Shown in pieces: positions 8,843 through 62,029 of a stretch of 64,000 nucleotides of DNA. Where the stretch lies: positions 4,137,001 through 4,201,000 of the forward strand of contig NZ_JACHMI010000001.1 of assembly GCF_014207985.1 (NCBI RefSeq), written 5' to 3'. Each line of letters begins with the position of its first letter. Position 1 is the stretch's first letter. A program made the translations under genes and the position numbers. Source of the DNA: Nonomuraea rubra (GTDB lineage Bacteria > Actinomycetota > Actinomycetes > Streptosporangiales > Streptosporangiaceae). Below the pieces are notes generated by a model that saw only the letters and a list, made by a program, of their open reading frames with translations, had not been told where the DNA came from and did not search any database.

Positions 8843-8896
8843 GCTCCGCTTCCTACCCGCCCGGGCGCGTCCGCCATGCCTCGCGTCCCGCGGACG

Positions 8897-10709: not shown

Positions 10710-10710
10710 G

Positions 10711-11636: not shown

Positions 11637-11649
11637 GGGAGTCCTCCCG

Positions 11650-11713: not shown

Positions 11714-11724
11714 GGAGGTCGTAC

Positions 11725-12303: not shown

Positions 12304-12315
12304 CCACCCCGAGTC

Positions 12316-12354: not shown

Positions 12355-12461
12355 GAGCCGGAGTTCACGGTGAACCGCAGTTGGCGGTTCGCCGTACGCA
12401 ACGGGTCCTGCGCTTTATCAGTGGATCCCGTTCTTTCAGCAGCACGGCCTCGTGAGGATCG

Positions 12462-13481: not shown

Positions 13482-13641
13482 ACCGGATATTTCCGCCCGA
13501 GGATTTCTTCGCCGCCGGCATGGGACCGCACGCGCGGGCGTGCCGTGGTGCGCCGGCGGCCTCGTCATGCGCACGATTCGCCGGGCCGGCGTGCCCGGCA
13601 TGTGGGCTGCCCTCGTTTCCGCAGCTCAGAAGGAGTACTTC

Positions 13642-14298: not shown

Positions 14299-14323
14299 CT
14301 TTGAGTCGATTCAACACTAATTT
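14295..14323 (+). promoter_or_regulatory. Promoter with LacI operator for RG-I transport operon
   Basis: TTTGAGTCGATTCAAC at 14300-14315 matches the site at 12316-12331 in 14 of 16 positions. It lies between a -35 TTGACT (14295-14300) and a -10 TAATTT (14318-14323) spaced by 17 bases, the ideal place for repression by blocking polymerase. Confidence 0.72.
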
Positions 14324-14421
14324 CGCACCAACCGCCGTTCACTCGCTTGTAACTGGGCAGGAACCACGGTGCAATACTCCACCCCCGTATCCGTGCACAT
14401 GCCACGAGAAGGTGGTGCCGG

Positions 14422-16607: not shown

Positions 16608-16621
16608 TACGACCCCCCGCC

Positions 16622-16652
16622 TGAGGGGCCCGGATGCCCTCCGGGCCCCTCA
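16622..16652 (+). terminator. Intercistronic hairpin after the binding-protein gene
   Basis: Perfect 13-base-pair stem (16622-16634 with 16640-16652) and five-base loop, between the binding-protein stop and the permease ribosome site. With no U tract it is better read as a partial terminator or RNA stabiliser that lets the binding protein be made in excess of the permeases. Confidence 0.65.
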
Positions 16653-16669
16653 CATGAAAGGAGGCCGCT

Positions 16670-17647
16670 GTGGCCACCGACCTGGCGACGCCTCCGAAGG
16701 CGGCGCCCAAGGCGAAGAAGCCGAAACGGGCCGACAAGGTCCCGCTGGGCACGGCGGTGCTGCGTTACCGCTGGCTCTACCTGATGCTCCTCCCGGGCGT
16801 CGCCTACTTCGTGATCTTCAAGTACCTGCCGATGTACGGCGTGACGATCGCGTTCCAGGACTACCTGCCCTTCCTCGGCTACTCGGGCAGCCCCTGGGTC
16901 GGCCTCAAGCACTTCGAGCAGCTCTTCTCCGGGCCCGACTTCGCCCGGCTGCTGGCCAACACGCTGATCCTGGCGGCACTGCACATCCTGTTCGTCTTCA
17001 CCGCGCCGGTCATCGTCGCGCTGATGCTGAACGAGCTGCGCGTCAACATCCTCAAGCGCTCGATCCAGTCGCTGATCTACATCCCGCACTTCCTGTCGTG
17101 GACCATCGTCGCGGCGCTGACGTACGTGCTGTTCGCGGCCGACTTCGGCGTGATCGCCGCCTGGATGCGCGACCTCCTGGGCGACACCACGAAGGTCGAC
17201 TACATGGCGCAGGAGCAGTGGTTCCGCGAGATCGTCATCCTGCAGCAGCTGTGGAAGATGACGGGCTGGGGCACGATCATCTACCTGGCCGCGCTGGCCG
17301 GCGTGGACCCCAACCTGTACGAGGCCGCCCGCATGGACGGCGCCGGCCGCTTCCGCCAGATGTGGCACGTCACGCTGCCCGCGATCCGCCCGACGGTCGT
17401 CGTCATGGCCATCCTCGCCTCCGGCAACCTGCTGGACTCCGGCTTCGAGCAGATCTGGCTGATGACCACGTCGCTCAACCGCGAGGTCGCCGAGGTGTTC
17501 GACACCTACGTGTACTACGCGGGTGTCCAGAACGGGAACTTCAGCTACTCCACCGCCGTCGGCCTGTTCAAGGGCGTGGCCGGCGTCATCCTGATCTTCG
17601 GCTCCAACTGGCTGGCCAAGCGCATGGGCCAGCGGGGACTGTTCTAG
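16670..17647 (+). CDS. ABC sugar transporter permease (YesP/LplB-like)
   Basis: MalF-type inner membrane permease of 325 residues with a charged N-terminal tail and six predicted helices. The EAA loop that contacts the ATPase reads YEAARMDGAGRFRQMWHVTLPAI at about 219-241. GTG 16670 follows AAAGGAGG by 6 bases. It is the first permease of the RG-I importer and is separated from its partner by only 11 bases. Confidence 0.93.
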   Translation: MATDLATPPKAAPKAKKPKRADKVPLGTAVLRYRWLYLMLLPGVAYFVIFKYLPMYGVTIAFQDYLPFLGYSGSPWVGLKHFEQLFSGPDFARLLANTLILAALHILFVFTAPVIVALMLNELRVNILKRSIQSLIYIPHFLSWTIVAALTYVLFAADFGVIAAWMRDLLGDTTKVDYMAQEQWFREIVILQQLWKMTGWGTIIYLAALAGVDPNLYEAARMDGAGRFRQMWHVTLPAIRPTVVVMAILASGNLLDSGFEQIWLMTTSLNREVAEVFDTYVYYAGVQNGNFSYSTAVGLFKGVAGVILIFGSNWLAKRMGQRGLF

Positions 17648-17658
17648 GGGGCCCCGGC

Positions 17659-18570
17659 ATGACCACTATGACTGAGACCAAGCCCAAGCAGCTCGCGGTC
17701 AACAACAACAGCTCCGCCGGCAGCCGCGTCTTCGACACCCTGAACGTGGTCGCGCTCGTCGGCCTGGCGCTGATCACGGTGCTGCCGCTGCTGTACGTGC
17801 TGGCCGCCTCGTTCTCCAGCGAGCCGGAGATCGCCTCCAGGCCCTTCTTCCTGTGGCCGGAGAAGATCGTCACCGAGGCGTACGAGTACATCTTCGCCAC
17901 CCCCACCTTCATCCGCTCCCTGCTCACGACCGTCGTCGTGACCGCGGTCGGCATGGTGGTGCAGGTGATGCTGACCTTCACCATGGCCTACCCGCTGGCC
18001 AAGCGGTACCTGCCGGGCCGCACCCTGGTGCTGAACCTGGTCATCTTCACGATGGTGTTCTCCGGCGGCATGATCCCCACCTACCTGGTGGTGCGCGACC
18101 TGGGGCTGCTCGACAGCTACTGGGCGCTGATCCTGCCGCTGGCGATCAACCCGTTCTACCTGATCATCGTCAAGAGCTTCTTCCAGGAGCTGCCGCAGGC
18201 GCTGGAGGAGGCGGCCAGGATCGACGGCTGCAACGAGATGGGCGTCTTCTTCAAGATCGTCCTTCCGCTGTCCAAGCCGATCATCGCGACGTTCTCGCTG
18301 TTCTACGCGGTGGCGATCTGGAACGACTACATGTCGCCGCTGCTGTACATCACCGATTCCAACAAGTGGACGCTGCAGATCCTCGTCCGCCAGCTCATCG
18401 CCACCGATCCCGCGGCCGCCCTGTCGCAGATGGACCGCACCTGGGTGCCGCCGGAGCAGGGGGTGAAGTTCGCGATCATCGTGATCGCGACGCTGCCGAT
18501 CCTGTTCTTCTACCCGTTCCTGCAGAAGCACTTCGCCAAGGGCGTGCTGATCGGGGGCGTCAAGGAGTGA
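17659..18570 (+). CDS. ABC sugar transporter permease (YesQ/LplC-like)
   Basis: MalG-type permease of 303 residues, partner of the preceding protein. Six helices are visible and the EAA loop is LEEAARIDGCNEMGVFFKIVLPL. The insert before the last helix (TDPAAALSQMDRTWVPPEQG) is usual in the LplC group. ATG 17659 is chosen as the start of family similarity. The last bases overlap the esterase start (GTGA). Confidence 0.93.
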   Translation: MTTMTETKPKQLAVNNNSSAGSRVFDTLNVVALVGLALITVLPLLYVLAASFSSEPEIASRPFFLWPEKIVTEAYEYIFATPTFIRSLLTTVVVTAVGMVVQVMLTFTMAYPLAKRYLPGRTLVLNLVIFTMVFSGGMIPTYLVVRDLGLLDSYWALILPLAINPFYLIIVKSFFQELPQALEEAARIDGCNEMGVFFKIVLPLSKPIIATFSLFYAVAIWNDYMSPLLYITDSNKWTLQILVRQLIATDPAAALSQMDRTWVPPEQGVKFAIIVIATLPILFFYPFLQKHFAKGVLIGGVKE

Positions 18571-19190
18571 GCACGCGCACCGTGCTGCTGGCGGGGGACT
18601 CGACGGTCGCCTCCTGCCCGGCCTTCGAAGCGCCGATGTCCGGATGGGGCGCGCAGCTCGGATCGTACGTCGGCGGCCCGGTGCGCAACCTCGCCAAGGG
18701 CGGCGCCACCACGGCCAGCCACCGCGCCGAGGGCCTGTGGGCGGCGCTGCTGCGCGAGACCTCGCCCGGCGACGTCGTGGTGATCCAGTTCGGGCACAAC
18801 GACCAGAAGGAGCCCGGACTGCCGTACCGGGAGAACCTGCGCGCCTTCGTCGAGGAGGCGCGCGGGGCGGGCGCGCTCGGGGTGCTGTGCACGCCGGTGC
18901 AGCGCCGCAGGTTCGACGGCGGGCGGCTGGTGCCCACGCACGGCGACTACCCCGACCGCGTGCGCGAGCTGGCCGCCGCCGAGGACGTGCCGCTCATCGA
19001 CCTGACCCGCGCCACCACCGAGCTGTACGAGCGCCTCGGCCCCGAGGGCTCGAAGGCCCTGTTCACCCACTTCCCGCCCGGCACCCATCCGCTCTACCCG
19101 GACGGCGTGGCCGACGACACCCACTTCTGCTTCCGCGGCGCCGACGAGGTGGCCGCCATCGTCGCCGAGCGACTGAAGGAGATCGCATGA
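18567..19190 (+). CDS. SGNH hydrolase, rhamnogalacturonan acetylesterase-like
   Basis: GDSL/SGNH esterase of 207 residues, the CE12/YesT type that removes acetyl groups from rhamnogalacturonan. The four SGNH blocks are present: GDSTVAS with S12, glycine in NLAKGGATT, GHND at about 73-76 and DDTHF near the C terminus holding the Asp and His. There is no signal peptide, so it acts on imported oligosaccharides. The start overlaps the permease stop and its end overlaps the lyase start. Confidence 0.9.
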   Translation: MSTRTVLLAGDSTVASCPAFEAPMSGWGAQLGSYVGGPVRNLAKGGATTASHRAEGLWAALLRETSPGDVVVIQFGHNDQKEPGLPYRENLRAFVEEARGAGALGVLCTPVQRRRFDGGRLVPTHGDYPDRVRELAAAEDVPLIDLTRATTELYERLGPEGSKALFTHFPPGTHPLYPDGVADDTHFCFRGADEVAAIVAERLKEIA

Positions 19191-21763
19191 CAGACCTGCG
19201 GTGGCTGGACCGGCCGGGAGACCAGGGGGTGACCTGGGGAGTCCCGTGGCCGCGCGGCACGGTCGAGCCCGGCACGCCGTTCGCGCTGACCGGCGGCGAC
19301 GGCCGCGAGGTGCCGGTGCAGAGCTGGGTGACCGCCACCTGGCCGGACGGCTCCGCCAAGTGGACGGCGCACGCCATCGGCGCCCGGCCCGCCGCGGAGC
19401 GGTACCGGCTCCAGCCCGGCGGCGAGCCCGCCGCGCCCGGCACCGCCGTCACCGTCACCCACGAGGGCCGCGAGCTGGTGGTGAGCACGGGCGTGGTCAC
19501 CTGGACGATCGGCGGCGGCGCGGTGGCCAGGTCGATCTCGCGCGGGAGCCGCGAGATCGCCAGGGACGTGCGCCTGGTCAGCCTCCGCCAGGACGGGCCC
19601 ACCCCCGACGAGGGCGGCCACGTCGCCCGCGAGCAGGCCGAGGGCCTGGTCGAGAGCGTCACGGTCGAGCAGGAAGGACCCCTGCGCGCCGTCGTCCGGC
19701 TGGAGGGCAGGCACGGCGACTGGCTGCCGTTCACCGTGCGCCTGTACTTCTACGCCGGCGCCGAGCACGTGCGCGTCCTGCACACCTTCGTCTGGGACGG
19801 CGACCCCGAGCGCGACTTCCTGGCCGGCCTCGGCCTGCGCGCCGACGTCGTCATGCGCGACGAGCTCCACGACCGGCACGTGCGCCTGGCCGGCGGCGAG
19901 GGTTTCCTGACCGAGGCCGTACGCGGGCTCACCGGCCTGCGCCGCGACCCCGGCGAGGCCGCACGCCGCGCCCAGGTCGAGGGCCGCCCGGCCGGCGAGC
20001 TCGACCCCGAGGTGGCGAGCCGCCTGCACCTCATCCCCGCCTGGAACGACCACACCCTCGACCAGACCTCCGCCGACGGCTACACGCTGCGCAAGCGCAC
20101 CAAGGACGGCCACGCCTGGGTGACGATCCCGGCCGGCGCCCGCTCGCAGGGCTACGGCTACGTCGGCGGCGTCAGCGGCGGGCTCGGCTTCGGGCTGCGC
20201 GACTTCTGGCGCCTGCACCCCACCCGCCTGGACATCAGGAACGCGGCCACCGACCTCGCCACCGTCACCGTCTGGCTGTGGTCGCCGTCCGCCCCGGCCA
20301 TGGACCTGCGCTTCTACCACGACGGCCTGGGCCAGGACACCTTCGAGGAGCAGCTCGAGGGCCTGGAGATCACCTACGAGGACTACGAGCCCGGGTTCGG
20401 CGACCCGCGCGGCATCGCCCGTACGCACGAGCTGAGCCTGCGCGCCCACGACACCACGCCCGCCGCGCACGAGCTGGCCGCGCACGCCGCCGCCATGAAC
20501 GAGCCCGCGCTGCTGGTCGCGAGCCCCGAGCGGGTGCGCGAGGCGGGCGTGTTCGGCGTGTGGGGCCTGCCCGACCGCTCCACGCCCGCGCGCGCCGAGA
20601 TCGAGGACCGCCTCGACTTCCTCTTCGACCTGTACGTGCGCGAGCGCGAGCAACGCCGCTGGTACGGGTTCTGGGACTACGGCGACGTCATGCACACCTA
20701 CGACGGCGACCGCCACACCTGGCGCTACGACGTCGGCGGCTACGCCTGGGACAACTCGGAGCTGTCACCCGACCTGTGGCTGTGGCTGCAGTTCCTGCGC
20801 ACCGGCCGCGCCGACGTCTTCCGCTTCGCCGAGTCCATGACCCGCCACACCGGCGAGGTGGACGTCTACCACCTCGGCAGGTGGAAGGGCCTGGGCAGCC
20901 GCCACAACGTGCAGCACTGGGGCTGCAGCTGCAAGCAGCTGCGCATCTCCAACGCCGCCTACCGGCGCTTCTACTACTACCTGACGGCCGACGAGCGCAC
21001 CGGCGACCTCATGGACGAGCTCAGCGTGCCCGAGGAGACGTTCCTGGCGATCGACCCGCTGCGCAAGGTCCGCGAGGACGTCTACAGCCCCGACCCGTCC
21101 GCGCTGTCGGTCGGGCTCGGCACCGACTGGGGCTCGCTGGCGGCGGCCTGGCTGACCCGGTGGGAGCGGCACGGCGACGAGCGCGCCAGGGACCGGCTGC
21201 TCGGCACGATGGCCGACATCGGCGCGATGCCGCGCCGCTTCCTGACGGGCGAGGGCCGCCTCGACCTGGAGACCGGGCGCTTCGACACCTCCCGCGATCA
21301 GATCTCCATCTCGCACCTGTCGTCGCTGTTCGGGCTGCCGGAGATGTGCGCGGAGCTGATCGCGCTCGACCTGGGCGTGCCCGGGTTCGAGGAGGCGTGG
21401 CTGGAGTACTGCCGGCTCTACCTGGCGCCGCCCGAGCAGCAGGAGGCCGAGGTGGGGCAGCGGCTGAGCGGGATCTCGCTGATCCAGGCGCACAGCCGGC
21501 TCACGGCGTACGCGGCCGCCCGCACCGGGGACGCCGAGCTGGCCGCGTGGGCCTGGCGCAAGTTCCGCCTGGGCGAGGGCGACCAGCTCAACCGTAACCC
21601 GCTGCAACATCAGGAGAAGTGGGAGCTGACCCTGGTGGACGGGCCCGAGGTGCCGCACCCGGTGCACGAGGCGCCGTTCGTGAGCACCAACAGCGCCGCG
21701 CAGTACGGCCTGGCCGCCATTCACAACCTGGTGCTGATCGGCGAACATCTGACGAATGGTTGA
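19187..21763 (+). CDS. PL26 / YetA-like exo-rhamnogalacturonan lyase
   Basis: Large cytoplasmic protein of 858 residues resembling the PcRGLX/YetA family. That family cleaves unsaturated rhamnogalacturonan I ends by beta-elimination and has an N-terminal RIFT-barrel-like domain, a central domain and an alpha/alpha-barrel part. The start MTDLRWLDRPGDQGVTWGVPWPRG and the block VQSWVTATWPDGSAKWTAHAIG are typical. The later YGDVMHTYDGDRHTWRYDVGGYAWDNSE and QHWGCSCKQLR stretches probably form the barrel active site. ATG 19187 overlaps the esterase stop. It is the last gene of the operon and a hairpin follows at 21773-21791. Confidence 0.85.
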   Translation: MTDLRWLDRPGDQGVTWGVPWPRGTVEPGTPFALTGGDGREVPVQSWVTATWPDGSAKWTAHAIGARPAAERYRLQPGGEPAAPGTAVTVTHEGRELVVSTGVVTWTIGGGAVARSISRGSREIARDVRLVSLRQDGPTPDEGGHVAREQAEGLVESVTVEQEGPLRAVVRLEGRHGDWLPFTVRLYFYAGAEHVRVLHTFVWDGDPERDFLAGLGLRADVVMRDELHDRHVRLAGGEGFLTEAVRGLTGLRRDPGEAARRAQVEGRPAGELDPEVASRLHLIPAWNDHTLDQTSADGYTLRKRTKDGHAWVTIPAGARSQGYGYVGGVSGGLGFGLRDFWRLHPTRLDIRNAATDLATVTVWLWSPSAPAMDLRFYHDGLGQDTFEEQLEGLEITYEDYEPGFGDPRGIARTHELSLRAHDTTPAAHELAAHAAAMNEPALLVASPERVREAGVFGVWGLPDRSTPARAEIEDRLDFLFDLYVREREQRRWYGFWDYGDVMHTYDGDRHTWRYDVGGYAWDNSELSPDLWLWLQFLRTGRADVFRFAESMTRHTGEVDVYHLGRWKGLGSRHNVQHWGCSCKQLRISNAAYRRFYYYLTADERTGDLMDELSVPEETFLAIDPLRKVREDVYSPDPSALSVGLGTDWGSLAAAWLTRWERHGDERARDRLLGTMADIGAMPRRFLTGEGRLDLETGRFDTSRDQISISHLSSLFGLPEMCAELIALDLGVPGFEEAWLEYCRLYLAPPEQQEAEVGQRLSGISLIQAHSRLTAYAAARTGDAELAAWAWRKFRLGEGDQLNRNPLQHQEKWELTLVDGPEVPHPVHEAPFVSTNSAAQYGLAAIHNLVLIGEHLTNG

Positions 21764-40765: not shown

Positions 40766-43759
40766 ATGCCTGGAAAGGGAGAGGCTCATATGGACATCGA
40801 GCACGACTGGACCCTGCTGCCGGCCGTGGTCGTCCGGAGCGCCGGGTTTCCCTGGGAACTCGTCCTGTCCCTCGTCCACCCCCGGGCGGCCGAGGCCGCC
40901 ACCGCGGTCGTACGGCTGGAGCGGCAGGCACTCGACCTGCTCGCCGAGGCGCCCGCCCGCGACCCCCGCCCGCCCGCGACGCCCAGCGGGCGGGCGGGCG
41001 GCGGGCGGCTGCGGCGTGGCCTGCGCGGCCGCCTGCGCGACCTGCGGCCCCTGCCGGACGGCACGCCCGGCCCCGACGGCTGGCTGACGGAGTGGAACGA
41101 CGTGACGGGGCGGCTGGAGGAGGCCAGGCTCACGCTGTCCGGCCTGGAGTCCGGCGACGCCGCCCTCTGCAGGGCCGCCGTGGCCGGGATCCTGGCCGAC
41201 GAACGTTTCCTCGACGCCCTCGTGTGCTCCTCGCCCGCCCTCTACCGCGACCTGCGGCACGGGGCCAAGGGCGGCAGGACCCGCCGCGAGCTCGCCGGAC
41301 AGGTGCAGCGGCTGTCGGCGTCGTGCGAGACGGCGGGCTGCTACGGGCCCGTCAACTACGGCGTCGTCGCCGCCGGGGAACGCGGAGGCTACACGTGGGC
41401 GGGGGCCCACCCGCTCGCGCGGCGGGTGGCGTTCCCGGCCGCGCGGGTGGGCGAGGCGCTGCAGCAGCGCGTGCTCGCCGAGCCCGCGCTCGTCGCCGGG
41501 CTGGTGCCGCGGCGCAAGACGTGGACGGGGGAGGTGCACGACGGGGCCGCCTTCGTGGGGCACTGCGACGGGGGGCGCACGCTGGCCGAGATCGCGGCCG
41601 CGACCGGAGTGGGCGTCGAGCGGGCCGCGGCGGCGCTGGCCGTGGCGGTGCGGCGCGGGCTCCTCACCCACGACCTGTGCCCGCCCGCCACCGTCTGCGA
41701 CACCCTGGGCTGGCTGCGTGAGCGGCTGGTCGCGAGGGGGCTGCGGCTGATCGCGGGGGACGCCGGTGCGGTGGCTTACGTCGATCGCGCGTCTGCGGCG
41801 ACGCACGATGACCGCGCGGGTGCCGTGGCGCATGACGATCTCGCGTCTGCGGCGGCGCACGGCGACAGCGCGGCGGCGGCGGTGCCGGGTGCCGCTGCCG
41901 GGCATGGGCGGGCCGCTCCATCGGGGACCTGCGAGTGCGGGTGTGCCGAGGCGAGAGGGCCGGCCGGGCGGGGTCGTGGCGGAGGTGGGAAAGGCGACGG
42001 CGCGCGGGCGCGCGGGCTGCTCGCGTCCGGGGTGCCCGGGCGGGCGTTCGCAGGGCGTACGGGCGTGCCGGCCCAGCGTGCGCGGGCGGCCGTCGGCGAG
42101 CGGCCGGCCCGGGACGCCGACCTGCCGCTCGGCCGGCGCGTCGGCGAGATCGGCGAGCTGCTCGCGCAGTACCCCGGCGCCTCGCCCGACGTGAAGCTGG
42201 CCGTGCAGCGGCGGATCGAGGCCCTGGCCGGAGGCGGGAGCCGCGACGAACGGGCGATCGTGCACGAGGCCGCCGCCGGCACGCTGCACGTCACGGTCGG
42301 TGACACGCTCGCCGCCGACCTCCGGGGCCGCGTGACCAGGGTGCTCGACGTGCTCGCCGAGGAGGCCGAGCTGACCAGGCAGCGCACCAACCGGCTGCTG
42401 GCCGGGCGGCTCGGGCCCGGCACGTACGAGCTGGCCGAGGTCCTGCGCACGACCGGCGACCTGGAGATCGAGCACGGAGACCGGCTGGCCGCGCGCATCG
42501 CCGCCCTCGTCCGCGACGCCCCCGCCGGCACCACCGAGCTGAACCTCGCCGGCCTGCTCGGCGAGCCCGCCCCGCCCGCCGCCCCGGTCCTGTGCTCGGC
42601 CGACGTCATGGTGGCCGCGCCCGAGCTGGAGACGTACGAGACCGGGGTGACCCCGCTGGTCCTCAGCCGGCTGCACGACGCGGTGCTGCTCACGCCGTGG
42701 GCGCTGCAGTTCCACGAGGAAGGCGCCGCGTGCCTGGCCGAGCGGGACACCGAGATCAGGCGGGCGCTGTCCGGGTTCACCGTGCTGAACGTCATCTCCC
42801 GCCGCTCCAACGGCGTGCCGCCGCTGGAGCTGCCCGGGCCCGTGCTGGAGCTCGGCGGGGTGGCGGCCGATCCGCGGCGGCGGCGGGTCGGGCTCGACGA
42901 GCTGTACGTGCACAGCGACGGGCAGCGGGCCGTGCTGCACGCCAAGGGGATGGAGGAGCCGCTGCTGCTGCACAACGGCGAGCACGACACGGCGCTGCAC
43001 ACGGCGTTCGCGCTGCCCAGGATCCGGCCGCCACGGCTCGGCGACCTTGCCCGGGTGCCGCGGCTGACCTGGGACAACGTGGTCGTCTCGCGGCGTCGGT
43101 GGCTGCTGGGAAGGGCCTCGTTCGAGGCGCTCGGGCAGGCAGGGGGCGATCGTGAGCTGCTGGTGGCGATGGCACGGCTGCGGGAGGTGCACGAGCTGCC
43201 GGTCGCGTTCTTCGCCTCGACCGCCCGGGAGCGCCGGTCCCTGTACGTGGACACGCGCTCGCCCGCGCTGCTCGAAGGGCTGGCCCGGATGGCCGCCTCC
43301 AGCGAGCGGGTCACGGTGACGGAGGTGTTGCCGGGGCCGGAGGCATGCTGGCTGCGGGAGGGGGAGAAGCGGTTCGCGGCCGAGCTGCGCTGCGTCTACC
43401 TGCGGCCGGCGGGGTCTTCGGCATCGGATGGTCAGGTCGTACGGTCCGGTGCCGCACGCTCGGAAGCCGCGGCAGAGCCCGGGCTCGCGCCCTCTGGAGC
43501 CGCGCCGTCTGGAGCCGCGCCGTCTGGAGCCGCGCCGTCTACAGGCCCGCAGTCTGGAGCCGAGGAGGCGGGTGCCGCGCGGTCCGGTGGGGCCGGGGCG
43601 CGGCCGGGTGTGGTGTCCCGTGACGGTCCCGGCCGGCGGGCGGATCGGGCCGGGTGGCGGCCGGACCGGTTCGTCCAGCAGTTCTACGGGCCCGTTCAGC
43701 AGCTTCGCAGGTCCGTACAGCAGTCGCACCCCTACCCCTGGCCCGGAGAGAGCGGTTGA
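40766..43759 (+). CDS. LanB-like lantibiotic dehydratase / PEARL-type protein
   Basis: Protein of 997 residues. The LanB N-terminal domain is recognisable: TLLPAVVVRSAGFP (about 16-29), ADERFLDALVCSSPALYRDL (about 144-163) and KGGRTRRELAGQVQRL followed by TAGCYGPVNYG at about 168-199. This group uses glutamyl- or aminoacyl-tRNA. The domain end near 880-900 reads VTVTEVLPGPEACWLREG. A low-complexity insert (about 335-420) contains CECGC, and a repetitive tail of about 100 residues follows the domain. No SpaB_C elimination domain is seen, so a peptide aminoacyl-tRNA ligase or glutamylating role is more likely than full dehydration. ATG 40790 is an alternative start. It overlaps the next gene (TGATG). 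Confidence 0.82.
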   Translation: MPGKGEAHMDIEHDWTLLPAVVVRSAGFPWELVLSLVHPRAAEAATAVVRLERQALDLLAEAPARDPRPPATPSGRAGGGRLRRGLRGRLRDLRPLPDGTPGPDGWLTEWNDVTGRLEEARLTLSGLESGDAALCRAAVAGILADERFLDALVCSSPALYRDLRHGAKGGRTRRELAGQVQRLSASCETAGCYGPVNYGVVAAGERGGYTWAGAHPLARRVAFPAARVGEALQQRVLAEPALVAGLVPRRKTWTGEVHDGAAFVGHCDGGRTLAEIAAATGVGVERAAAALAVAVRRGLLTHDLCPPATVCDTLGWLRERLVARGLRLIAGDAGAVAYVDRASAATHDDRAGAVAHDDLASAAAHGDSAAAAVPGAAAGHGRAAPSGTCECGCAEARGPAGRGRGGGGKGDGARARGLLASGVPGRAFAGRTGVPAQRARAAVGERPARDADLPLGRRVGEIGELLAQYPGASPDVKLAVQRRIEALAGGGSRDERAIVHEAAAGTLHVTVGDTLAADLRGRVTRVLDVLAEEAELTRQRTNRLLAGRLGPGTYELAEVLRTTGDLEIEHGDRLAARIAALVRDAPAGTTELNLAGLLGEPAPPAAPVLCSADVMVAAPELETYETGVTPLVLSRLHDAVLLTPWALQFHEEGAACLAERDTEIRRALSGFTVLNVISRRSNGVPPLELPGPVLELGGVAADPRRRRVGLDELYVHSDGQRAVLHAKGMEEPLLLHNGEHDTALHTAFALPRIRPPRLGDLARVPRLTWDNVVVSRRRWLLGRASFEALGQAGGDRELLVAMARLREVHELPVAFFASTARERRSLYVDTRSPALLEGLARMAASSERVTVTEVLPGPEACWLREGEKRFAAELRCVYLRPAGSSASDGQVVRSGAARSEAAAEPGLAPSGAAPSGAAPSGAAPSTGPQSGAEEAGAARSGGAGARPGVVSRDGPGRRADRAGWRPDRFVQQFYGPVQQLRRSVQQSHPYPWPGESG
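43491..43565 (+). repeat. 15-base tandem repeat in LanB-like gene tail
   Basis: Five copies of CGTCTGGAGCCGCGC, the fourth and fifth diverged, encode the APSGA repeats near the C terminus. They lie in the part beyond the recognisable LanB domain. Confidence 0.85.
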
Positions 43760-45021
43760 TGGAACTCCTCGTCATCCCCCCGTTCACCGACTTCACCACC
43801 GAGATCGTCCCGCCGCCAGGGGCGGAGGTGCTCGACCTGGGAGCCGGCCTCGTCGAGCGCCTCACCGACCCCGCCCGCCTGCGCGACGGGCCGCACGCCG
43901 CGCTGACCGGGCGGGCGGCGGCCGTCATCGAGCGGGCGGCGTACGACGACGCGCACCTGCGGGCCGTCGGCGCGGCGCTGCGCCTGGCGGGCGACCCCGC
44001 GCTCCGGCTCACCCTCGACGGCCTCGAACTGGCCGAGGGCAGCACGCAGAGCAGCCGCGACGTGCTCGCCGCCGCCGCGAGATGCGAGCTGTTCCGGCCC
44101 GAGGTCGACCAGGCCGTGGAGGCGGCCAAGGAGCGGCGCGTACATGTCGTGGTGGACGGCGAGCGGCAGCTTCCCGCCGCGTTCGCGCTGGTGCGGGCGC
44201 TGGGGGCGGAACGGGTGACGTTGTGCGGGCGGCTCGTGGCCGAGCAGGTGGCGGCGCTGCGGCGGGTTCCGGAGCTGGCCGGGGCCGAGTGGCTGAGCTG
44301 GTCGCCCGAGCGCGTGATCCGTCAGCGCTGGTACGCCGGCGGCTCCCGCACCACCGCGCACCAGGTGACCGGGCCGGCGGCTGCCGTGAACCGGGTGGTG
44401 GGAGCGGCGGTTCCCGCGCACTGGGCGGCCGGGCCGGCGGTTGCCGTGCGGTGGGTGACCGGGGTGGATGTGCCGCCCGTGAGCGGGCCGTGGGCGGGGC
44501 GGCTGGACGCGGTGCGCGTGGCGGCGTTCCCGCTCGACGCGCTGGCCCGCTGCCGTGGGCTGACGATCATCGTGACGCGCATCGACTTCCTGGCCGCCGT
44601 GACCGGGCTGAACGGCATGACCGTCAACCTGCGCCGCCTGCTGGCCGCGATCCCGGTGGCGGCGCCGGTGACGTGCGAGCTGGCGGTGGGGGCGCCGGGG
44701 ATCGACGCGGGCGTCGTGGGCGAGTCGCTGGAGTTGCTGGCGGACGGGCCCGGTGGGGTGCGGCTCGGCGGGTTGCGGCCGTACCGGATGGGGATCCGTA
44801 CGGTCTGGGCCGGGCACAGCGTGCGCTTCCCGCCACGCGCGGGGCACGATCTGACGCGCTGGATCGAGTTCGACGCGCCCGAGACCATGCGTGAGTGGGA
44901 GGTGGCGCGGACGATCAGGACCTGGCGCGACCGGCTGCACGGCCTCCCGCCCGGCCGGCTCGCCGCCTGCACCGTCGCCACGGAGCCGCCGGCGACCGCG
45001 GAGGGTCCGTGGCGACGGTGA
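43759..45021 (+). CDS. Radical-SAM-like protein lacking the Fe-S cysteine motif
   Basis: Protein of 420 residues in the middle of the operon. The N-terminal part resembles the B12-binding-like domain of RiPP radical SAM enzymes (LLVIPPFTDFTTEIVPPPG at the start, later VHVVVDGERQLPAAFALVRALG and RVTLCGRLVAEQVAALRRVPEL). The C-terminal part recalls the end of their barrel (VTCELAVGAPGIDAGVVGESLELLA, VRLGGLRPYRM). Between them, where CxxxCxxC should stand, is a repeated Ala/Val linker (about 197-230) with no cysteine. So it is probably a pseudo-enzyme, scaffold or new activity. Overlaps: 1 base upstream, 13 bases downstream. Confidence 0.65.
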   Translation: MELLVIPPFTDFTTEIVPPPGAEVLDLGAGLVERLTDPARLRDGPHAALTGRAAAVIERAAYDDAHLRAVGAALRLAGDPALRLTLDGLELAEGSTQSSRDVLAAAARCELFRPEVDQAVEAAKERRVHVVVDGERQLPAAFALVRALGAERVTLCGRLVAEQVAALRRVPELAGAEWLSWSPERVIRQRWYAGGSRTTAHQVTGPAAAVNRVVGAAVPAHWAAGPAVAVRWVTGVDVPPVSGPWAGRLDAVRVAAFPLDALARCRGLTIIVTRIDFLAAVTGLNGMTVNLRRLLAAIPVAAPVTCELAVGAPGIDAGVVGESLELLADGPGGVRLGGLRPYRMGIRTVWAGHSVRFPPRAGHDLTRWIEFDAPETMREWEVARTIRTWRDRLHGLPPGRLAACTVATEPPATAEGPWRR

Positions 45022-46898
45022 TTTCGTGGGCGGTTCCCGCTGGGCGGGGGGAGCTGGTCGTGGAGCTGTGTCCGTGGTTTCTGCTGCGGACCACCGGGCT
45101 GCCGGTGGCGCTGCTCGATGGGCTCGGCCATCCCGACCTGCGGCGGCTCAGCGAACGGCTGCTCGCCGCCGAACGCCGGCTGGCCGCCGAGCGGCGCTGC
45201 TTCGAGCGGCTGGCCGGACCGATGCGTGGCAGCGTTCTGCGGCTCGCCCCCGAGCGGCGGGCCCAGGCCAGGCGGTGCGTCAGGAGCGTACGCGCCGGGA
45301 TGCCACTGACCGGGGACGAGCTGGGGCTGCTGGAGTCGCTGGGGCTGGGGGAGTGGGCGCGGCGCTGGCAGTCCGCCGTGGTCGTGGCGGGCGCGGCACG
45401 GGTGGCGGCCAGGAGCGCGTACGCCGCCGCCCGGCTCGTGACCCGGCGCAAGGTCGCCGAGGCGTACGACGACGAGTCCGTACGGCAGGCGGCCTTCCTC
45501 GCCGACCCCGGTTTCTACCAGGCGATCGTGCGGCATCCGCTGGCCCGGAGGCCGGGAGACGGCACGGCGAGGCGTTCCCGCCTGCTCACCGCGGCCGCTC
45601 ACCGGCAGCTGCGGCGCTTAACGGTGGGAGGTCAGGGCGGGCCTGTCCTGTACGCGCGGTTCGAGCCGCACGGCGGCGGGGCGTTGCGCGTGGGCGAGCC
45701 GGGGCCCCAGCGGGTGGTCGTCGAGGTGGGTGACTGGCTGGCCCGGCACCTCGGGGACGCCAGCCGGGCGGAGGAACTGCGCGCCCGGTACGCGAGCACG
45801 CCCTGGCCCCAGCGCGTCCAGCACTACGAGGCCGCCCGCCTCGCGGCACTCGACCCCGCCGATGCGGCCCCCGACCTCGTCGAGGGGCGCGGTTCTCAAG
45901 AGGACGGAACGCGTGACGGCGGTGAGGCGCCGGTGCTCGGCAGGCGGGCCGGGGCACAGGGCCGGCCTCATCCGCACGGCTGGGCCGGGCGCGGCGGTGG
46001 GTGGGGACCGCAGCGCCACGACGTCTTCCGCGAGGAGCGCTCCAGCCCGTACAGCGAGCGCGTCACGATCGGCGGCGAGGCGCTGGCCGGACTACGGGAA
46101 GCACTGACGGTGGTGCTGCCCCTGTGGCACCTGGCCACGCTGCTCGACGGCGAGCCCGCCCGCGCGAGCGCGCTCGCCACCACCCTGGCCGGGCTCGCGG
46201 CCGAGGCGCCGGGCGGTCAGGACGCCATCCGGCTGACCGCCCAGGACGTGGCCCGCGCCACCGCCGGCCTGTGGGATCTCGTCCAGGACCGCCCCGGCGG
46301 CCTCCACCTCCCCGGCCCCGAGCTGATGGCCGTCGGCCCGCGCCTGGGCGAGGCGGCGTGGCTGCTGTGCGGCCTCCGGGACGACTGCCGTCCCCTGTAC
46401 GAGGGCCTCCACGCCAGGCTGCACTCCGCACCCAGCACGCTCCGCGACGCACTCCCCGCCCCCGGGCCGGCCGCCACGGCACTCCCCGCGCCCGGGCCGG
46501 CGGCCACGCGCCCGCAGCCGCCGCCCGAGATCGACCTCGGCGCCCACACCCCCCGCATCCTGATCGACGACCTGATCTACCAGCGGGCCCGCTGGCGCGT
46601 CCACCTCCCGAGGGAACGCGGCGCCGACGCCTTCGACCGCTGGCTCGCCATCCACCGCCTGCGCCGCGAACGATCCCTGCCCCGCCACGTCTTCGTCCAC
46701 CACCCCGCCGGCCCCCGCCCCTGCTACGTCGACTTCTGCGACCCGTTCGCGGTCGAGGAGCTGGCCAGGCAGGAACCGGCCGAGGTGCTGATCACCGAGA
46801 TGCTGCCCGTCCCCGGGCAGCTCTGGTGGCGGGTGGACGGCCGGGAGCAGTGCGCGGAGCTGCGGCTGGGCTGCGTCGTACGGCCCGCCGCCCGGTAA
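45009..46898 (+). CDS. Second, divergent LanB-like protein
   Basis: Protein of 629 residues. LanB-type landmarks are LCPWFLLRTTGLPVALL (about 20-36), YDDESVRQAAFLADPGFYQAIVRHPL (about 153-178) and a C-terminal RHVFVHHPAGPRPCYVDFCDPFAVEEL followed by VLITEMLPVPGQLWWR. The motif seen as GPVNYG in the first LanB-like protein is degraded here to GPVLYARF, so tRNA-dependent activity may be lost. Two low-complexity inserts are present (about 295-350, and a duplicated LPAPGPAAT near 480-500). GTG 45009 has GGAGG just upstream. It may form a complex with the first LanB-like protein. Confidence 0.72.
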   Translation: MATVISWAVPAGRGELVVELCPWFLLRTTGLPVALLDGLGHPDLRRLSERLLAAERRLAAERRCFERLAGPMRGSVLRLAPERRAQARRCVRSVRAGMPLTGDELGLLESLGLGEWARRWQSAVVVAGAARVAARSAYAAARLVTRRKVAEAYDDESVRQAAFLADPGFYQAIVRHPLARRPGDGTARRSRLLTAAAHRQLRRLTVGGQGGPVLYARFEPHGGGALRVGEPGPQRVVVEVGDWLARHLGDASRAEELRARYASTPWPQRVQHYEAARLAALDPADAAPDLVEGRGSQEDGTRDGGEAPVLGRRAGAQGRPHPHGWAGRGGGWGPQRHDVFREERSSPYSERVTIGGEALAGLREALTVVLPLWHLATLLDGEPARASALATTLAGLAAEAPGGQDAIRLTAQDVARATAGLWDLVQDRPGGLHLPGPELMAVGPRLGEAAWLLCGLRDDCRPLYEGLHARLHSAPSTLRDALPAPGPAATALPAPGPAATRPQPPPEIDLGAHTPRILIDDLIYQRARWRVHLPRERGADAFDRWLAIHRLRRERSLPRHVFVHHPAGPRPCYVDFCDPFAVEELARQEPAEVLITEMLPVPGQLWWRVDGREQCAELRLGCVVRPAAR

Positions 46899-46975
46899 TT
46901 CGGTTGCCGCGCCGCACCGGCGCCTGGTGTACTCCCGGACTGGAAGCACGCCCTACCACCGCGAGGAGGCCCCCG

Positions 46976-47077
46976 ATGGCTGAAGCGTTCGTGAACCCTC
47001 AGCTCAGTGACACCTCCAGCGCAAAGGGCATGACGCTTCTTGAGATCGTTCGATCCGGAGACCTCAGCATCACCTAG
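46976..47077 (+). CDS. Candidate RiPP precursor / scaffold peptide, 33 residues
   Basis: A short gene with a near-perfect ribosome site (GAGGAGG, 7 bases before ATG 46976). It encodes a 33-residue peptide beginning MAEAFVNPQLSDTSS and ending GMTLLEIVRSGDLSIT. The base composition is closer to average than in its neighbours. It contains eight Ser/Thr residues and no Cys, so lanthionine rings are excluded. LLEIVRSGDLSI looks like an amphipathic leader helix that a LanB recognition element could bind. It sits between the second LanB-like gene and the exporter genes, the usual place for a precursor. Confidence 0.68.
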   Translation: MAEAFVNPQLSDTSSAKGMTLLEIVRSGDLSIT

Positions 47078-48782
47078 TTCCTCCGTCCTCCGGCTGCTCC
47101 GCCCGGGACCGGGCGCCGCCGCGGCTCTCGCCGCCGCGATCGCCGCCGCGACCGCGCTCCCGCTGGCCGCGCCGCAGGTGACCCGGAGGTTCGTCGACGA
47201 CGCCATCGGCGGCGCGAGCATCCGGCACCTGACCTTGGTCGCCCTCGGCTACCTCGCGCTCGCCGTGGCGGGCCAGGCGGCCAGGATGGTGACCGCGTGG
47301 CTGGCCGGCAGGCTCGCCTGGGACGGAACCAACCGCCTGCGCGAACGCCTCACCGGCCACGCGCTCGGCCTCGACCTGGCCTTCCACGGCCGCCACACCC
47401 CCGGCGAGCTGATCGAGCGGGTGGACGGCGACGTCGTGGCGGTCGCCGACTTCGTCGTGGCGTTCCTGCTGGACGTCGTGGCCAGCGTGCTGCTCCTGGC
47501 GGGAGTGGTCGTCGTCGTGTTCGCCGTCGACTGGCGCATCGGGGCCGCGCTGCTGGCGTACTGCCTGATCGTCGGGTACGGCATGGCCCGCGCCCAGCGG
47601 CTGGCCGTGCCGTCGGCGGCCCGCGCGCGAGCCGCGAGCGCCACCCTGTTCGGCACCCTCGAAGAGCGGTTCGCCGGCGCCGAGGACATCAGGGCCAACG
47701 GCGCGGGCGAGCACACCGTGCGCCGCTTCCACCAGGTCGCCGCCGCCCTCTTCCGCGCCGAGAACCGCGACGCCCGCATCGGCACCACGCTGCTCGCCGG
47801 CACCTCCGTGGCCTTCGCCGCCGGCACGGCCGTCATGCTGGCGCTGGCCGCGTGGACCGTCGAGACGGGCACGCTCACGGTGGGCACGGCCGTGCTGCTC
47901 TTCCAGTACACGCTCATGGTGCGGGCGCCGTTCGAGCGGCTCATCGACCAGATCAGGCAGTACCAGGCGGCCCTGGCCGGCCTGGCCCGCATCGCGGCCC
48001 TGCTCGCCGAGCGGCCCGCGCTGACCCCCGGCACGCGCCCGCTGCCGGGTACCGGGCCGCTCGGCCTGCGCGTCGAAGGCGTCGCGTTCTCCTACCCGGA
48101 CGACGACGAGCAGGTGCTGTCCGGCATCGACGTCACGCTGGCGCCCGGCGAGACGCTGGGCCTGGTCGGGCGGACGGGCAGCGGCAAGACCACCCTGGCC
48201 AGGCTCGTGCTGCGGCTGCACGACCCCGTCGAGGGCGCCGTCCGCGTCGGCGGCGTGGACCTGCGCGAGGCCGACCCCCGCTCGCTGCGCGCCAGGATCG
48301 GCGTGGTCACCCAGGACGTGCAGCTGTTCGCGGCGAGCGTGCGCGACAACCTGACGCTGTTCAGGCCGTCGCCGGGCGACGAGCGGCTGATGGAGGTGCT
48401 GCAGGCGGTCGGGCTCGACGAGTGGGCGGCCGGGCTGCCCGACGGGCTCGACACCGAGCTGCGCGGCTTGTCGGCGGGGCAGGGGCAGCTCCTGGCGTTC
48501 GCGCGGGCGTTCCTCGCCGATCCCGGGCTCGTCGTCCTGGACGAGGCGTCCAGCCGCCTCGACCCCGCCACTGAGCGGCGCATCGAGGACAGCGTCGGCC
48601 GGCTGCTCGAAGGCAGGACCGGCGTGATCATCGCGCACCGCCTGTCGTCCCTGTCCCGGGTGGACAAGATCGCGGTGCTCCACCGCGGCAAGATCGTCGA
48701 GTACGGCCGCCGCGACGAGCTCGCCGCGGACCCGGGCAGCAGGTTCGGCCGGCTGCTCGACCTGGCGGGGGTGGGCCGATGA
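47040..48782 (+). CDS. ABC half-exporter 1 of the LanB-like operon
   Basis: Half-transporter of about 580 residues: six membrane helices (about 20-300) and an ATPase domain with Walker A GRTGSGKTT, a noncanonical signature LSAGQGQ, Walker B LVVLDEASSRLD and IAHRL. There is no C39 peptidase domain, so it does not itself remove a leader. The reading frame opens with TTG 47040, inside the precursor gene in another frame; no better start precedes the first helix, so translation is probably coupled and the exact start is uncertain. It overlaps the next gene by 4 bases. Confidence 0.85.
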   Translation: MRSFDPETSASPSSSVLRLLRPGPGAAAALAAAIAAATALPLAAPQVTRRFVDDAIGGASIRHLTLVALGYLALAVAGQAARMVTAWLAGRLAWDGTNRLRERLTGHALGLDLAFHGRHTPGELIERVDGDVVAVADFVVAFLLDVVASVLLLAGVVVVVFAVDWRIGAALLAYCLIVGYGMARAQRLAVPSAARARAASATLFGTLEERFAGAEDIRANGAGEHTVRRFHQVAAALFRAENRDARIGTTLLAGTSVAFAAGTAVMLALAAWTVETGTLTVGTAVLLFQYTLMVRAPFERLIDQIRQYQAALAGLARIAALLAERPALTPGTRPLPGTGPLGLRVEGVAFSYPDDDEQVLSGIDVTLAPGETLGLVGRTGSGKTTLARLVLRLHDPVEGAVRVGGVDLREADPRSLRARIGVVTQDVQLFAASVRDNLTLFRPSPGDERLMEVLQAVGLDEWAAGLPDGLDTELRGLSAGQGQLLAFARAFLADPGLVVLDEASSRLDPATERRIEDSVGRLLEGRTGVIIAHRLSSLSRVDKIAVLHRGKIVEYGRRDELAADPGSRFGRLLDLAGVGR

Positions 48783-50596
48783 GGCCGGTGATGCTGGTGG
48801 CCACCCGGCTGGCCACGTTCGACCTGCGCCGGTACGTCGTGGGGGCGCTGCTGTGGCTGCCCGTCCACGTGATCCCGCTGGCCGGTGGGCTCGTTCTGCA
48901 GCAGGTCTTCGACCAGATCAGCGGGCACCAGCCGGCCGCTCTGCGGGCCACGTTGTGGTGGTGTGCGGCGTTCGTGGGGGTCGAGCTGGTTCGCGGGCTG
49001 GTGATCGTCGTCGCGTGGACGTACGGCGTGTACTGGTGGAACGCGGCGGCGACCCTGCTGCGTGCCAACGTGCTGCGCTCCGTGCTGACCGCGCGCGGGC
49101 CGGTCGCGGCGCGGATGTCGCACTCCTCGGGTGAGGCCGTCGCGCGGATGCGGGACGACGTGGCCGACGCCGTGGACTTCACCGACGAGAGCGTCAGCCT
49201 GGCGGGGACGACGCTGTTCGCCGTCGTGGCCGTGCCGATCATGGCGTCCGTGGATCCCGTGATCACGGTGGTGCTGGCGCTGCCGATGATCGCGGTCGGG
49301 GTGCTGAGCAGGACGATGCGGCGGGTGGTGGAGCGGCTGCACCGGCGGGCCAGGAGGCTCGGCGCGGCCGTGACGGCGTACGTGGGGGAGGTGTTCGGCG
49401 GTGTGCTGGCGCTCAAGACGGCGGGGGCCGAGGAGGCGGCCCTGGAGCGGTTGCGCGAGCACAACCGGCGGCGGCGCGACGCCGCTGTCAGGGACCGCAT
49501 GGCGACCGACCTGCTGGGTGCCGCGACCACCACGACGATCGAGCTCAGCACCGGGCTCGTGCTGCTGCTCGCCGCGCCCTCCATGCGCGGCGGCGACTTC
49601 ACCGTCGGGGACCTGGCGCTGTTCACCAGCTACATCGGCTGGCTCACCGCGCTGCCCCGCTCGATCGGCACCATCCTGTACCGGCTGCCCCAGGCGGCGG
49701 TCGCCACGGAGCGGCTCACCGGGCTGATGGCGCCGCACGAGGACGCCGGCACCCTGTCAGGCGGCGCCGACGTCTGGCTGCACCGCGACCCGCCGCCCGC
49801 GGCGCCGCCTGCCGAGCCGCCTGCCGGGCCGCCCCTTGCGTCGGCGTCCTCGCACGCCGAGCCGCTGCGGGTGCTCGAAGCGCGTGGGCTCACCGTGCGG
49901 GGAGTGCTGCACGGTGTCGATCTGCGGCTCGAACGCGGGTCGTTCACGGTGGTCACAGGAGCCGTGGGGGCGGGCAAGAGCACGCTGGTACGCGCCCTGC
50001 TCGGCCTCCTGCCGCTGGACGGGGGCACGATCTCGTGGAACGGTGTCCCGGTCGAGGATCCGGGCACGTTCCTCGTCCCGGGGCGCACGGCGTACGCGGG
50101 CCAGGTGCCGCGCCTGTTCTCGGCGACGCTGCGGGAGAACCTGCTGCTCGGCCTGCCCGCGAGCGACGACGACGCCCGGCGGGCGCTGGAGCTGGCGGTG
50201 TTCGAGCAGGACCTGGACGGGATGCCGGACGGGCTCGGCACGGTCGTCGGGCCGCGCGGGGTGCGGCTGTCCGGCGGGCAGGTGCAGCGGGCCACCGCCG
50301 CCCGCGCCCTCGTCCGTGAGCCCGACCTGCTGGTGGTGGACGACCTGTCGTCCGCGCTGGACGTCGAGACCGAGCAGCTGTTGTGGGAGCGGATCGCCGG
50401 GCGCGGGCCGGAGACCGTGCTGGTCGTCTCCCATCGGCAGGCCGCGCTCGAACGGGCCGACCAGGTGATCGTCCTGGACCGGGGGCGCGTCGCCGGGTGC
50501 GGGCGGCTGGGGGAGCTGCTGGAGAGCTGCCCCGAGATGCGGCGGCTGTGGCACGCGGAGCTGATCGCGGAGGCGGAGGAGCGGACCGGCGGCTGA
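48779..50596 (+). CDS. ABC half-exporter 2 of the LanB-like operon
   Basis: Partner half-transporter of 605 residues: six helices, then an ATPase domain with Walker A GAVGAGKST, signature LSGGQVQR and Walker B LLVVDDLSSALD. The catalytic glutamate after Walker B is Asp, so its ATP site is weakened, whereas half-exporter 1 has Glu but an altered signature. That complementary degeneracy is typical of heterodimeric exporters with one working site. A Pro/Ala linker (about 340-360) separates the domains. It is the last gene of the operon. Confidence 0.9.
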   Translation: MRPVMLVATRLATFDLRRYVVGALLWLPVHVIPLAGGLVLQQVFDQISGHQPAALRATLWWCAAFVGVELVRGLVIVVAWTYGVYWWNAAATLLRANVLRSVLTARGPVAARMSHSSGEAVARMRDDVADAVDFTDESVSLAGTTLFAVVAVPIMASVDPVITVVLALPMIAVGVLSRTMRRVVERLHRRARRLGAAVTAYVGEVFGGVLALKTAGAEEAALERLREHNRRRRDAAVRDRMATDLLGAATTTTIELSTGLVLLLAAPSMRGGDFTVGDLALFTSYIGWLTALPRSIGTILYRLPQAAVATERLTGLMAPHEDAGTLSGGADVWLHRDPPPAAPPAEPPAGPPLASASSHAEPLRVLEARGLTVRGVLHGVDLRLERGSFTVVTGAVGAGKSTLVRALLGLLPLDGGTISWNGVPVEDPGTFLVPGRTAYAGQVPRLFSATLRENLLLGLPASDDDARRALELAVFEQDLDGMPDGLGTVVGPRGVRLSGGQVQRATAARALVREPDLLVVDDLSSALDVETEQLLWERIAGRGPETVLVVSHRQAALERADQVIVLDRGRVAGCGRLGELLESCPEMRRLWHAELIAEAEERTGG

Positions 50597-60922: not shown

Positions 60923-62029
60923 ATGAAACGCATCCTCCTCACCGCGCTGCTCTTACTCACGGCCCTCGCCGTCGTCCCGGCGCACGCCCAGGCAGGGCCG
61001 GGCCGCCTGCAGATCAGGGGCGCGGACGTGTCCAGCCTGGCCAAGTCGGAGGCGCTCGGCGGCGTCTACCGCGACGCCCGCGGGCGCAGGGGCGACGCGC
61101 TGGCCATCCTGTCCCAGGCCGGGCTCAACTACATCAGGCTCAAGGTCTGGGTGAACCCGGCCGACGGCTACAACACCAAGAGCCGGGTGCTCGCGGTGGC
61201 CAGGCGGGTCAAGGCGCTCGGCATGGGCCTGCTCGTCGACTTCCACTACTCCGACACCTGGGCCGACCCGGGCAAGCAGTACAAGCCCGCCGCGTGGGAG
61301 GCGCTGCCGTTCGAGCAGCTGCGGCAGGCCGTGTACGACCACACCTACGACGTGCTCGACGCGCTGCGCGACCAGGGCACCACGGCCGACATGGTGCAGG
61401 TCGGCAACGAGATCAACGGCGGCCTGCTCTGGCCGGACGGCTCCAACTCCACCTGGGCGAACACGGCGGCGCTGCTGAACGCCGGGTACGACGCCGCCAA
61501 GGCGGTCTCCGGCTCGACCAGGGTCGTGCTGCACCTGGCCAACGGCGGCGACAACGGCCTGTACCGGTGGTGGTTCGACAACGCGGGCGCCCACGGCATC
61601 CGCTACGACGTGATCGGCCTGTCGTACTACTCCTACTGGCACGGCACGCCGGAGGCGTTCCAGGCCAACCTCAACGACGTGGCCAGCCGGTACGGCAAGC
61701 CCGTCGTCGTGGTGGAGACCGCGTACCCGTTCACCACGGCCGACGACGACGGCTGGGAGAACATCATCACCTCCGCCGAGTCGTACCCCGGCTACCCGGC
61801 CACCCCGCAGGGGCAGTCGGCGATGCTGGCCCGGGTGGCCGACATCGTCCGCGCCGTGCCGAACGGCCTGGGCCTCGGCCTGTTCACCTGGGAGGCCACG
61901 TGGACGGGCGTGCGGGGCAACGGCTGGGACCCGGCCGACCCCTCCTCGGGCAACGGCTGGGAGAACCAGGCCCTGTTCGGCTACGACGACAGGGCGCTTC
62001 CCGCCATGTCCGTCCTCGGCCGCCGCTGA
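60923..62029 (+). CDS. Secreted GH53 endo-beta-1,4-galactanase
   Basis: Exported enzyme of 368 residues that cuts the beta-1,4-galactan side chains of type I arabinogalactan and rhamnogalacturonan I. The signal is MKRILLTALLLLTALAVVPAHAQA. Catalytic residues are E163 in VQVGNEINGG and E265 in VVVETAYP; DFHYSDTWADPGKQ is the family fingerprint. Released oligomers would be bound by the divergent ABC system and cut by the GH42 enzyme. Confidence 0.95.
   Translation: MKRILLTALLLLTALAVVPAHAQAGPGRLQIRGADVSSLAKSEALGGVYRDARGRRGDALAILSQAGLNYIRLKVWVNPADGYNTKSRVLAVARRVKALGMGLLVDFHYSDTWADPGKQYKPAAWEALPFEQLRQAVYDHTYDVLDALRDQGTTADMVQVGNEINGGLLWPDGSNSTWANTAALLNAGYDAAKAVSGSTRVVLHLANGGDNGLYRWWFDNAGAHGIRYDVIGLSYYSYWHGTPEAFQANLNDVASRYGKPVVVVETAYPFTTADDDGWENIITSAESYPGYPATPQGQSAMLARVADIVRAVPNGLGLGLFTWEATWTGVRGNGWDPADPSSGNGWENQALFGYDDRALPAMSVLGRR

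Follow-up and report, generated by a model that had tools for sequence, protein, structure and literature searches.

Peptide aminoacyl-tRNA ligases (PEARLs) such as TglB, BhaBC-Trp and AmmB2 belong to the LanB glutamylation family and lack an elimination domain; PEARLs and LanB enzymes have been proposed to descend from ATP-grasp ligases (PMC11117183). In BhaBC-Trp, a helix with Tyr205 and Arg208 holds the tRNA 3' end, and the substitutions Y205A and R429A cause a severe loss of activity (PMC11962472). The amm and ame clusters of Streptomyces sp. CNR-698 and S. uncialis DCA2648 contain a PEARL at the AmmB2 position followed by an Amm10 homologue, as well as a PEARL at the AmmB4 position. According to their published description, AmmB2 adds Trp and AmmB4 adds Arg, while Amm10 has a radical-SAM-like fold with no cysteine motif (PMC12715798). 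Here we analyzed a six-gene locus at positions 40766-50596 of a 64,000-nucleotide stretch of the Nonomuraea rubra genome (RefSeq assembly GCF_014207985.1, contig NZ_JACHMI010000001.1, positions 4,137,001 to 4,201,000, forward strand), referred to as the window. In protein comparisons the window was closest to N. rubra (98% for MID, 89-91% for LB1). A check of open reading frames (ORFs) found all six genes, designated LB1, MID, LB2, PEP, ABC1 and ABC2, at their positions on the + strand. The explanation that we favour, with moderate confidence, is that they form two side-by-side modules: a remodelled and probably tRNA-independent PEARL descendant (LB1-MID-LB2), descended from the AmmB2-Amm10-AmmB4 segment of an ammosamide-type PEARL cluster for pyrroloiminoquinones, and an independent exporter unit (PEP-ABC1-ABC2).

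The PEARL ancestry of both LanB-like proteins, proposed in a first-pass annotation of this DNA, was borne out by a tree of 23 LanB-like proteins. LB1 (40766..43759, 997 amino acids with low-complexity insertions; the likely start is 40790, the ATG of MDIEHDW) joins the position-2 PEARLs and LB2 (44994..46898, start approximate, 634 amino acids) the position-4 PEARLs, with 100/100 support each; positions 1-4 stand for AmmB1-B4, inferred from the gene order of locus L030, a contig of the published ame strain S. uncialis DCA2648, and from published gene numbers rather than from a gene map. The nearest row from another genus is Thermocatellispora for both LB1 (99/98) and LB2 (99/96), and the stem branch of the Nonomuraea LB2 group is long (0.69, with 0.18 for its Thermocatellispora sister). 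According to a warning of the tree program, the join between the LB1 and LB2 groups may be false, which leaves the groups themselves unaffected. Both proteins carry the PEARL-type E-x-R close to the C-terminus. LB1 matches Lant_dehydr_N (PF04738, 36.9 bits) in a Pfam search and TbtB in a sequence-profile search, and LB2 is assigned to the LanB glutamylation family by its fold, neither MID nor LB2 having a Pfam or NCBIfam model above the cut-off.

No elimination domain (SpaB_C), cyclase or protease model was found among the operon proteins in Pfam and NCBIfam, and PEP has no Cys, so this part of the earlier description of a six-gene operon holds. A lanthipeptide or thiopeptide system was ruled out on the lack of an elimination domain and of a LanC cyclase, and PEP also lacks the Cys of a class I lanthipeptide core. 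The TbtB-type split LanB proteins, which are class I lanthipeptide and thiopeptide glutamylation enzymes, have the fold in common with the Nonomuraea proteins, but carry Tyr and Leu at the sites of the PEARL Asp and Arg (PMC11117183), whereas LB1 has the PEARL residues, and the elimination partner gene of these systems is absent from the Nonomuraea locus. Two more LanB-like proteins encoded in the source genome (G000, contig C1, 4765335-4767335, L066, and 4833853-4834659, L067; open frames of 909 and 937 amino acids) are not close to LB1 or LB2 and, judged by eye, look like split LanB glutamylation enzymes. Further Lant_dehydr_N matches in this genome lie at C1 12672248, 1788839-1790611 and 2231317-2239833, one of them spanning the full model with 656 bits.

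MID (43759..45021) is an Amm10 homologue. A protein with 41% identity to MID occupies the Amm10 place in the S. uncialis ame cluster (L030), between the position-2 and position-3 PEARLs, and structure comparison returned the same fold neighbours for MID as are given for Amm10 in PMC12715798. MID contains no CX3CX2C motif, and the earlier label "radical-SAM-like without cysteines" was therefore apt. Its best match in a sequence search of the PDB had an E value of 1.4, Foldseek by itself found nothing at E <= 0.001, and no relative was found in viral contigs. Since MID is an Amm10 homologue, the LanB-Amm10-LanB trio is already known from ammosamide-type clusters; the first-pass remark that no described system with this gene set came to notice thus fails for this core and stands for the Nonomuraea remnant beside an exporter unit, which we did not find described in open-licence PubMed Central papers. 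While gene position and fold are alike, the window's MID, in contrast to Amm10, ends before the C-terminal region, which in Amm10 is an RRE according to PMC12715798. This region is absent from 8 of the 14 copies read, the window's included, and is kept in L088, L093, L096, L097, L098 and L024; it presumably bound the lost scaffold. The search for MID across the genus covered 36 of the 54 genomes.

Larger relatives with four PEARLs and a scaffold were found in Thermocatellispora and Streptomyces, the closest to the Nonomuraea remnant being the cluster of Thermocatellispora tengchongensis (L029, L063), whose scaffold is of the AmmA type. Six of seven loci of Actinomadura, Thermocatellispora and Streptomyces encode an AmmA/BhaA-type scaffold that carries KIAPLALA close to its end, the seventh (L032) being a 4.8-kb fragment. 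The same tail pattern, which would miss an altered tail such as BhaA's KVAPLALA, occurs in none of the 54 Nonomuraea genomes. Several components of the amm and ame clusters are missing from the Nonomuraea locus: the AmmA-type scaffold, the PEARLs of the AmmB1 and AmmB3 positions, and the genes for TldD/E protease, glycine oxidase and halogenase. Two adjoining TldD-family matches lie about 75 kb downstream in the source genome (at 4.26 Mb), and the same family is found in 10 of 14 control genomes. With no AmmA-type scaffold, oxidative or release enzymes in the locus and with LB2 eroded, the pathway in Nonomuraea looks gutted.

Some features of the relatives were also recorded. The Streptomyces scaffolds (L030 ~3142, L031 ~3310) run seven residues past KIAPLALA and end in Trp (LAETRSW, TTEPSRW), whereas those of Actinomadura stop at KIAPLALA. 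Actinomadura chibensis, A. macra and A. syzygii (L025, L026, L028; ~5600-20500) have smaller pyrroloiminoquinone-type clusters, which combine an AmmA-type scaffold and an Amm10 homologue with a DAO oxidoreductase and in which PEARLs were seen only at positions 2 and 3; the L026 cluster additionally encodes an O-methyltransferase, a PF04199 protein and a TldD-like protein. In S. uncialis DCA2648, genes of the PF13468 and PF02441 families (L030:17602-18339 and 18336-19169) directly follow the DAO gene. This contrasts with PMC12715798, where counterparts of amm15 and amm16 are stated to be absent from the lymphostin and ammosester clusters.

Comparison of LB1 sequences across the genus revealed that the loss of residues is localised around the predicted tRNA 3'-end site. 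Residue numbers of BhaBC-Trp (PMC11962472) were mapped onto LB1 by motif spacing, and the region at reference positions 160-199 was picked from the published tRNA helix, with its edges set after viewing the residue table. In this region, 10 of 17 columns invariant in the outgroup are kept in fewer than half of the 45 Nonomuraea rows, versus 7 of 147 elsewhere (Fisher p 9.6e-8, for rows that are related by descent and exclude the window's own copy, P0047). Elsewhere, 115 of the 147 invariant columns are conserved in 90% or more of the Nonomuraea rows. The nine outgroup rows represent seven organisms, Actinomadura macra and Thermocatellispora appearing twice each, and include five unlabelled proteins chosen for carrying the full motif; in the residue counts, ten unlabelled rows, five of them with the full motif, were kept apart. 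Tyr205 is retained in 2 of 42 Nonomuraea rows, the Ser of SFFGP in 0 of 28 and the Tyr of FYxDR in 0 of 19, the latter two motifs being ones that we infer to be tied to tRNA binding. The ATP site presents the opposite picture, with its Asp kept in 45/45 rows, its His in 44/45 and the last Arg in 44/44. Hence LB1 shares the ATP-site Asp and His and the E-x-R with PEARLs and, in contrast to them, lacks the residues of the CCA site (the Tyr205/Arg208 helix, SFFGP and FYxDR) thought to bind the tRNA 3' end, with the exception of Arg208 in the window. The PEARL-specific pair of ATP-site Asp and Arg (D542 and R803 in TglB) is found in LB1 only. LB2 is eroded at both the tRNA and the ATP site, with the Asp replaced by Glu and the His by Arg in the window's copy, and is also shorter than the trimmed rows of other genera (858-892 amino acids). 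The loss of the tRNA motifs from LB1 and LB2 further separates the Nonomuraea locus from the amm and ame clusters.

The two modules emerge from a comparison of loci across Nonomuraea, in which gene presence was scored by tblastn (E 1e-10, 45% identity, or 60% for the ABC genes) and PEP by an exact 21-base element, AAGGGCATGACGCTTCTTGAG. Twelve PEP loci are uncut on their upstream side; of these, five lack MID, two lack LB1 and six lack LB2. L089, L093, L096 and L100 (L093 and L100 coming from one genome) are cut by contig ends and are not part of the 12. Conversely, L097, L098, L099 and L024 have LB1 and MID with neither the PEP element nor the exporters. L094 is cut downstream within ABC2, and L022 and L020 duplicate L095 and L099. 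Where the contig reaches, the flanks consist of an aminotransferase and/or SpoIIE-like gene upstream and a sirtuin gene downstream. In L091, ABC1 is represented by a short stretch and ABC2 is partial, and the exporter unit looks broken. In six genomes of other genera, many ABC paralogues were detected, with 27-46% identity among the matches listed and 38% for the best one near full length; none of the matches listed is close enough to be an orthologue of the exporters.

Because PEP is seen without the PEARL-module genes and these are seen without PEP, it belongs to the exporter unit. PEP is probably not a PEARL carrier or scaffold: it is unlike the AmmA/BhaA type, it is absent from the four LB1-MID loci and it occurs without MID, LB1 or both. 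The scaffold role given to the short peptide in the first-pass annotation was accordingly rejected, its gene not being conserved among homologous loci, an outcome that the annotation itself had named as counting against the proposal. The proposed tRNA-dependent chemistry is likewise unsupported because LB1, as far as its sequence tells, has lost residues with a presumed role in gripping the tRNA 3' end. An active pathway in which LB1 and LB2 extend PEP with amino acids taken from tRNA and ABC1-ABC2 export it would be in keeping with the PEARL ancestry of LB1 and LB2, with the E-x-R, Asp and Arg208 retained in the window's LB1 and with the adjoining small ORF and exporters. We nevertheless consider it highly improbable, given that the tRNA-site motifs are lost from both proteins, that single substitutions at Tyr205 or Arg429 severely impair BhaBC-Trp, and that PEP is variable at its C-terminus among loci, in addition to its dissimilarity to AmmA and its separate occurrence.

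PEP is a 33-codon ORF (46976..47077) with a GAGGAGG ribosome-binding site at 46963-46969, downstream of the promoter-like element TTGCCG-N18-TGTACT (46904..46933), for which CGGTTGC is identical in 14/14 aligned loci and also in L022. It overlaps out of frame with ABC1 (47040..48782; PF00664 and PF00005), an ATP-binding cassette (ABC) half-exporter followed by a second one, ABC2 (48779..50596; PF00005 and PF00664). The overlap is 35, 38, 41 or 44 bases with a constant frame relation in all 14 loci. A degenerate pattern for the KGMTLLE of PEP matched 14 of the 54 Nonomuraea genomes, always as the same 21 bases (47024..47044 in the window) with the rare CTT codons included, compared to two of 54 for the pattern read backwards as a control; the amino-acid identity follows from the design of the search, while the base identity does not. 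No stretch of 21 bases in ABC1 is as conserved (0 of 1681 windows over 13 of these genomes), and none was found in ABC2, where 340 of 605 codons were covered in all 13 genomes. The element was not found outside Nonomuraea, the nine positives among 297 genomes drawn from the order all belonging to this genus.

This element includes a Shine-Dalgarno-like AAGGG and a TTG in the ABC1 frame, nine bases after the start of a TGA. In N. jabiensis, the element is changed and the TTG start of ABC1 is kept. The nested TTG, the constant frame relation and the N. jabiensis sequence suggest that the element most likely serves to start translation of ABC1 from within PEP, and its conservation at the base level is likely due to the position of this start in the other frame. 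Base-level identity and a constant frame relation could also be produced by a programmed +1 frameshift at CTT CTT within the element, making PEP the N-terminal part of ABC1, and the tandem CTT codons are rare (eleven window genes use CTT for 5 of their 628 Leu codons). We regard such a frameshift as improbable, since N. jabiensis has no CTT CTT yet keeps the ABC1 TTG start and the site has no zero-frame stop codon. A structured RNA was rejected (fold z-score -0.01; no Rfam match at E <= 1), as was a repeated operator, the element being single-copy in the genome at up to three mismatches. In the exporter unit as we envisage it, the conserved promoter-like site would be followed by PEP as a leader ORF with the TTG start of ABC1 inside it; given this nested start, translation of PEP is probably coupled to that of the ABC1-ABC2 exporter and probably sets its level.

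The LB1 gene forms one frame with no stops relative to L092, L086, L085, L088, L095, L084 and L099 (7 of 12 loci compared), despite 9-18 gaps, and LB1, MID and LB2 each do so relative to L092, L086, L085 and L088, despite up to 14 gaps. In six pairs, LB1 changes at the third codon position number 1.4-2.3 times the changes at the first or second position. Ratios of nonsynonymous to synonymous substitution rates (dN/dS) are only comparative, because they derive from a simple Nei-Gojobori count on GC-rich DNA (with the LB1 row of L021 and the LB2 row of L024 excluded as spurious short matches), and are 0.37-0.60 for LB1, 0.41-0.48 for LB2 and 0.22-0.64 for MID. For comparison, they are 0.17-0.31 for the exporters and 0.10-0.17 for the aminotransferase (0.10-0.35 for aminotransferase, SIR2 and exporters overall), and the SpoIIE-like neighbour is as fast as LB1 (0.42-0.60).

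These raised ratios are among several points that weigh against the reading we favour. LB1 is frameshifted in L083, and stops appear in the alignments of L087, L090, L097 and L098. Arg208, a further contact of the tRNA end, survives in 27 of 42 LB1 rows, the window's included, E813 is lost in 8 of 44 Nonomuraea rows, and no new conserved motif stands in for the lost one. A scaffold unlike AmmA may stand elsewhere in the Nonomuraea genome, and the promoter-like element of the exporter unit was not called by a sigma-70 consensus scan. The patchy gene content, repeated loss of the MID C-terminal region, raised dN/dS, frameshifts and stops and loss of E813 fit plain decay equally well. LB1, MID and LB2 would then be slowly decaying leftovers of a lost pyrroloiminoquinone pathway with no present function, and the exporter unit would work alone. 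Independent loss of parts across the genus and gross deletions in LB2 point the same way, and such a relic is possible, though we do not think it probable. It accords poorly with the unbroken LB1 frames and with a loss concentrated at the tRNA site, since under neutral decay the ATP site should have eroded too. This focus of the loss on a single site is the reason why we rank a retained or new tRNA-independent role over plain decay.

Under the favoured two-module explanation, LB1 would no longer use aminoacyl-tRNA and most likely still binds ATP; it may activate a carboxylate for attack by a nucleophile not carried on tRNA, or serve as a binding partner. A more specific and rather tentative proposal is that LB1 is a PEARL without tRNA use, which keeps ATP-grasp-like acyl-phosphate chemistry and couples a carboxylate to a nucleophile that is free of tRNA. 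This would be a partial return to the proposed ATP-grasp ancestor; MID and the eroded LB2 would be the partners of LB1, and either a small molecule or a new carrier would serve as substrate. No PEARL relative of this Nonomuraea form, with much of the tRNA grip lost and the ATP site kept, was found in open-licence PubMed Central papers.

Elsewhere in the window, a PcRGLX-like three-domain protein (18644-21763) and a glycosyl hydrolase family 53 protein (60923-62029) are likely encoded by plant-polysaccharide genes.

For the annotation of similar loci, the practical point is that short ORFs beside LanB genes need a comparison of loci before they are labelled as precursors. Actinomadura and Thermocatellispora, with their larger relatives of this locus, are candidate producers of pyrroloiminoquinones, and comparing MID copies that have the C-terminal region with those that lack it could help to clarify the role of Amm10. 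The genus-wide LB1 set, with its eroded tRNA site and mostly kept ATP site, represents a natural experiment on the roles of these residues in the PEARL family, and also on whether the ATP half-reaction can be put to a different use.

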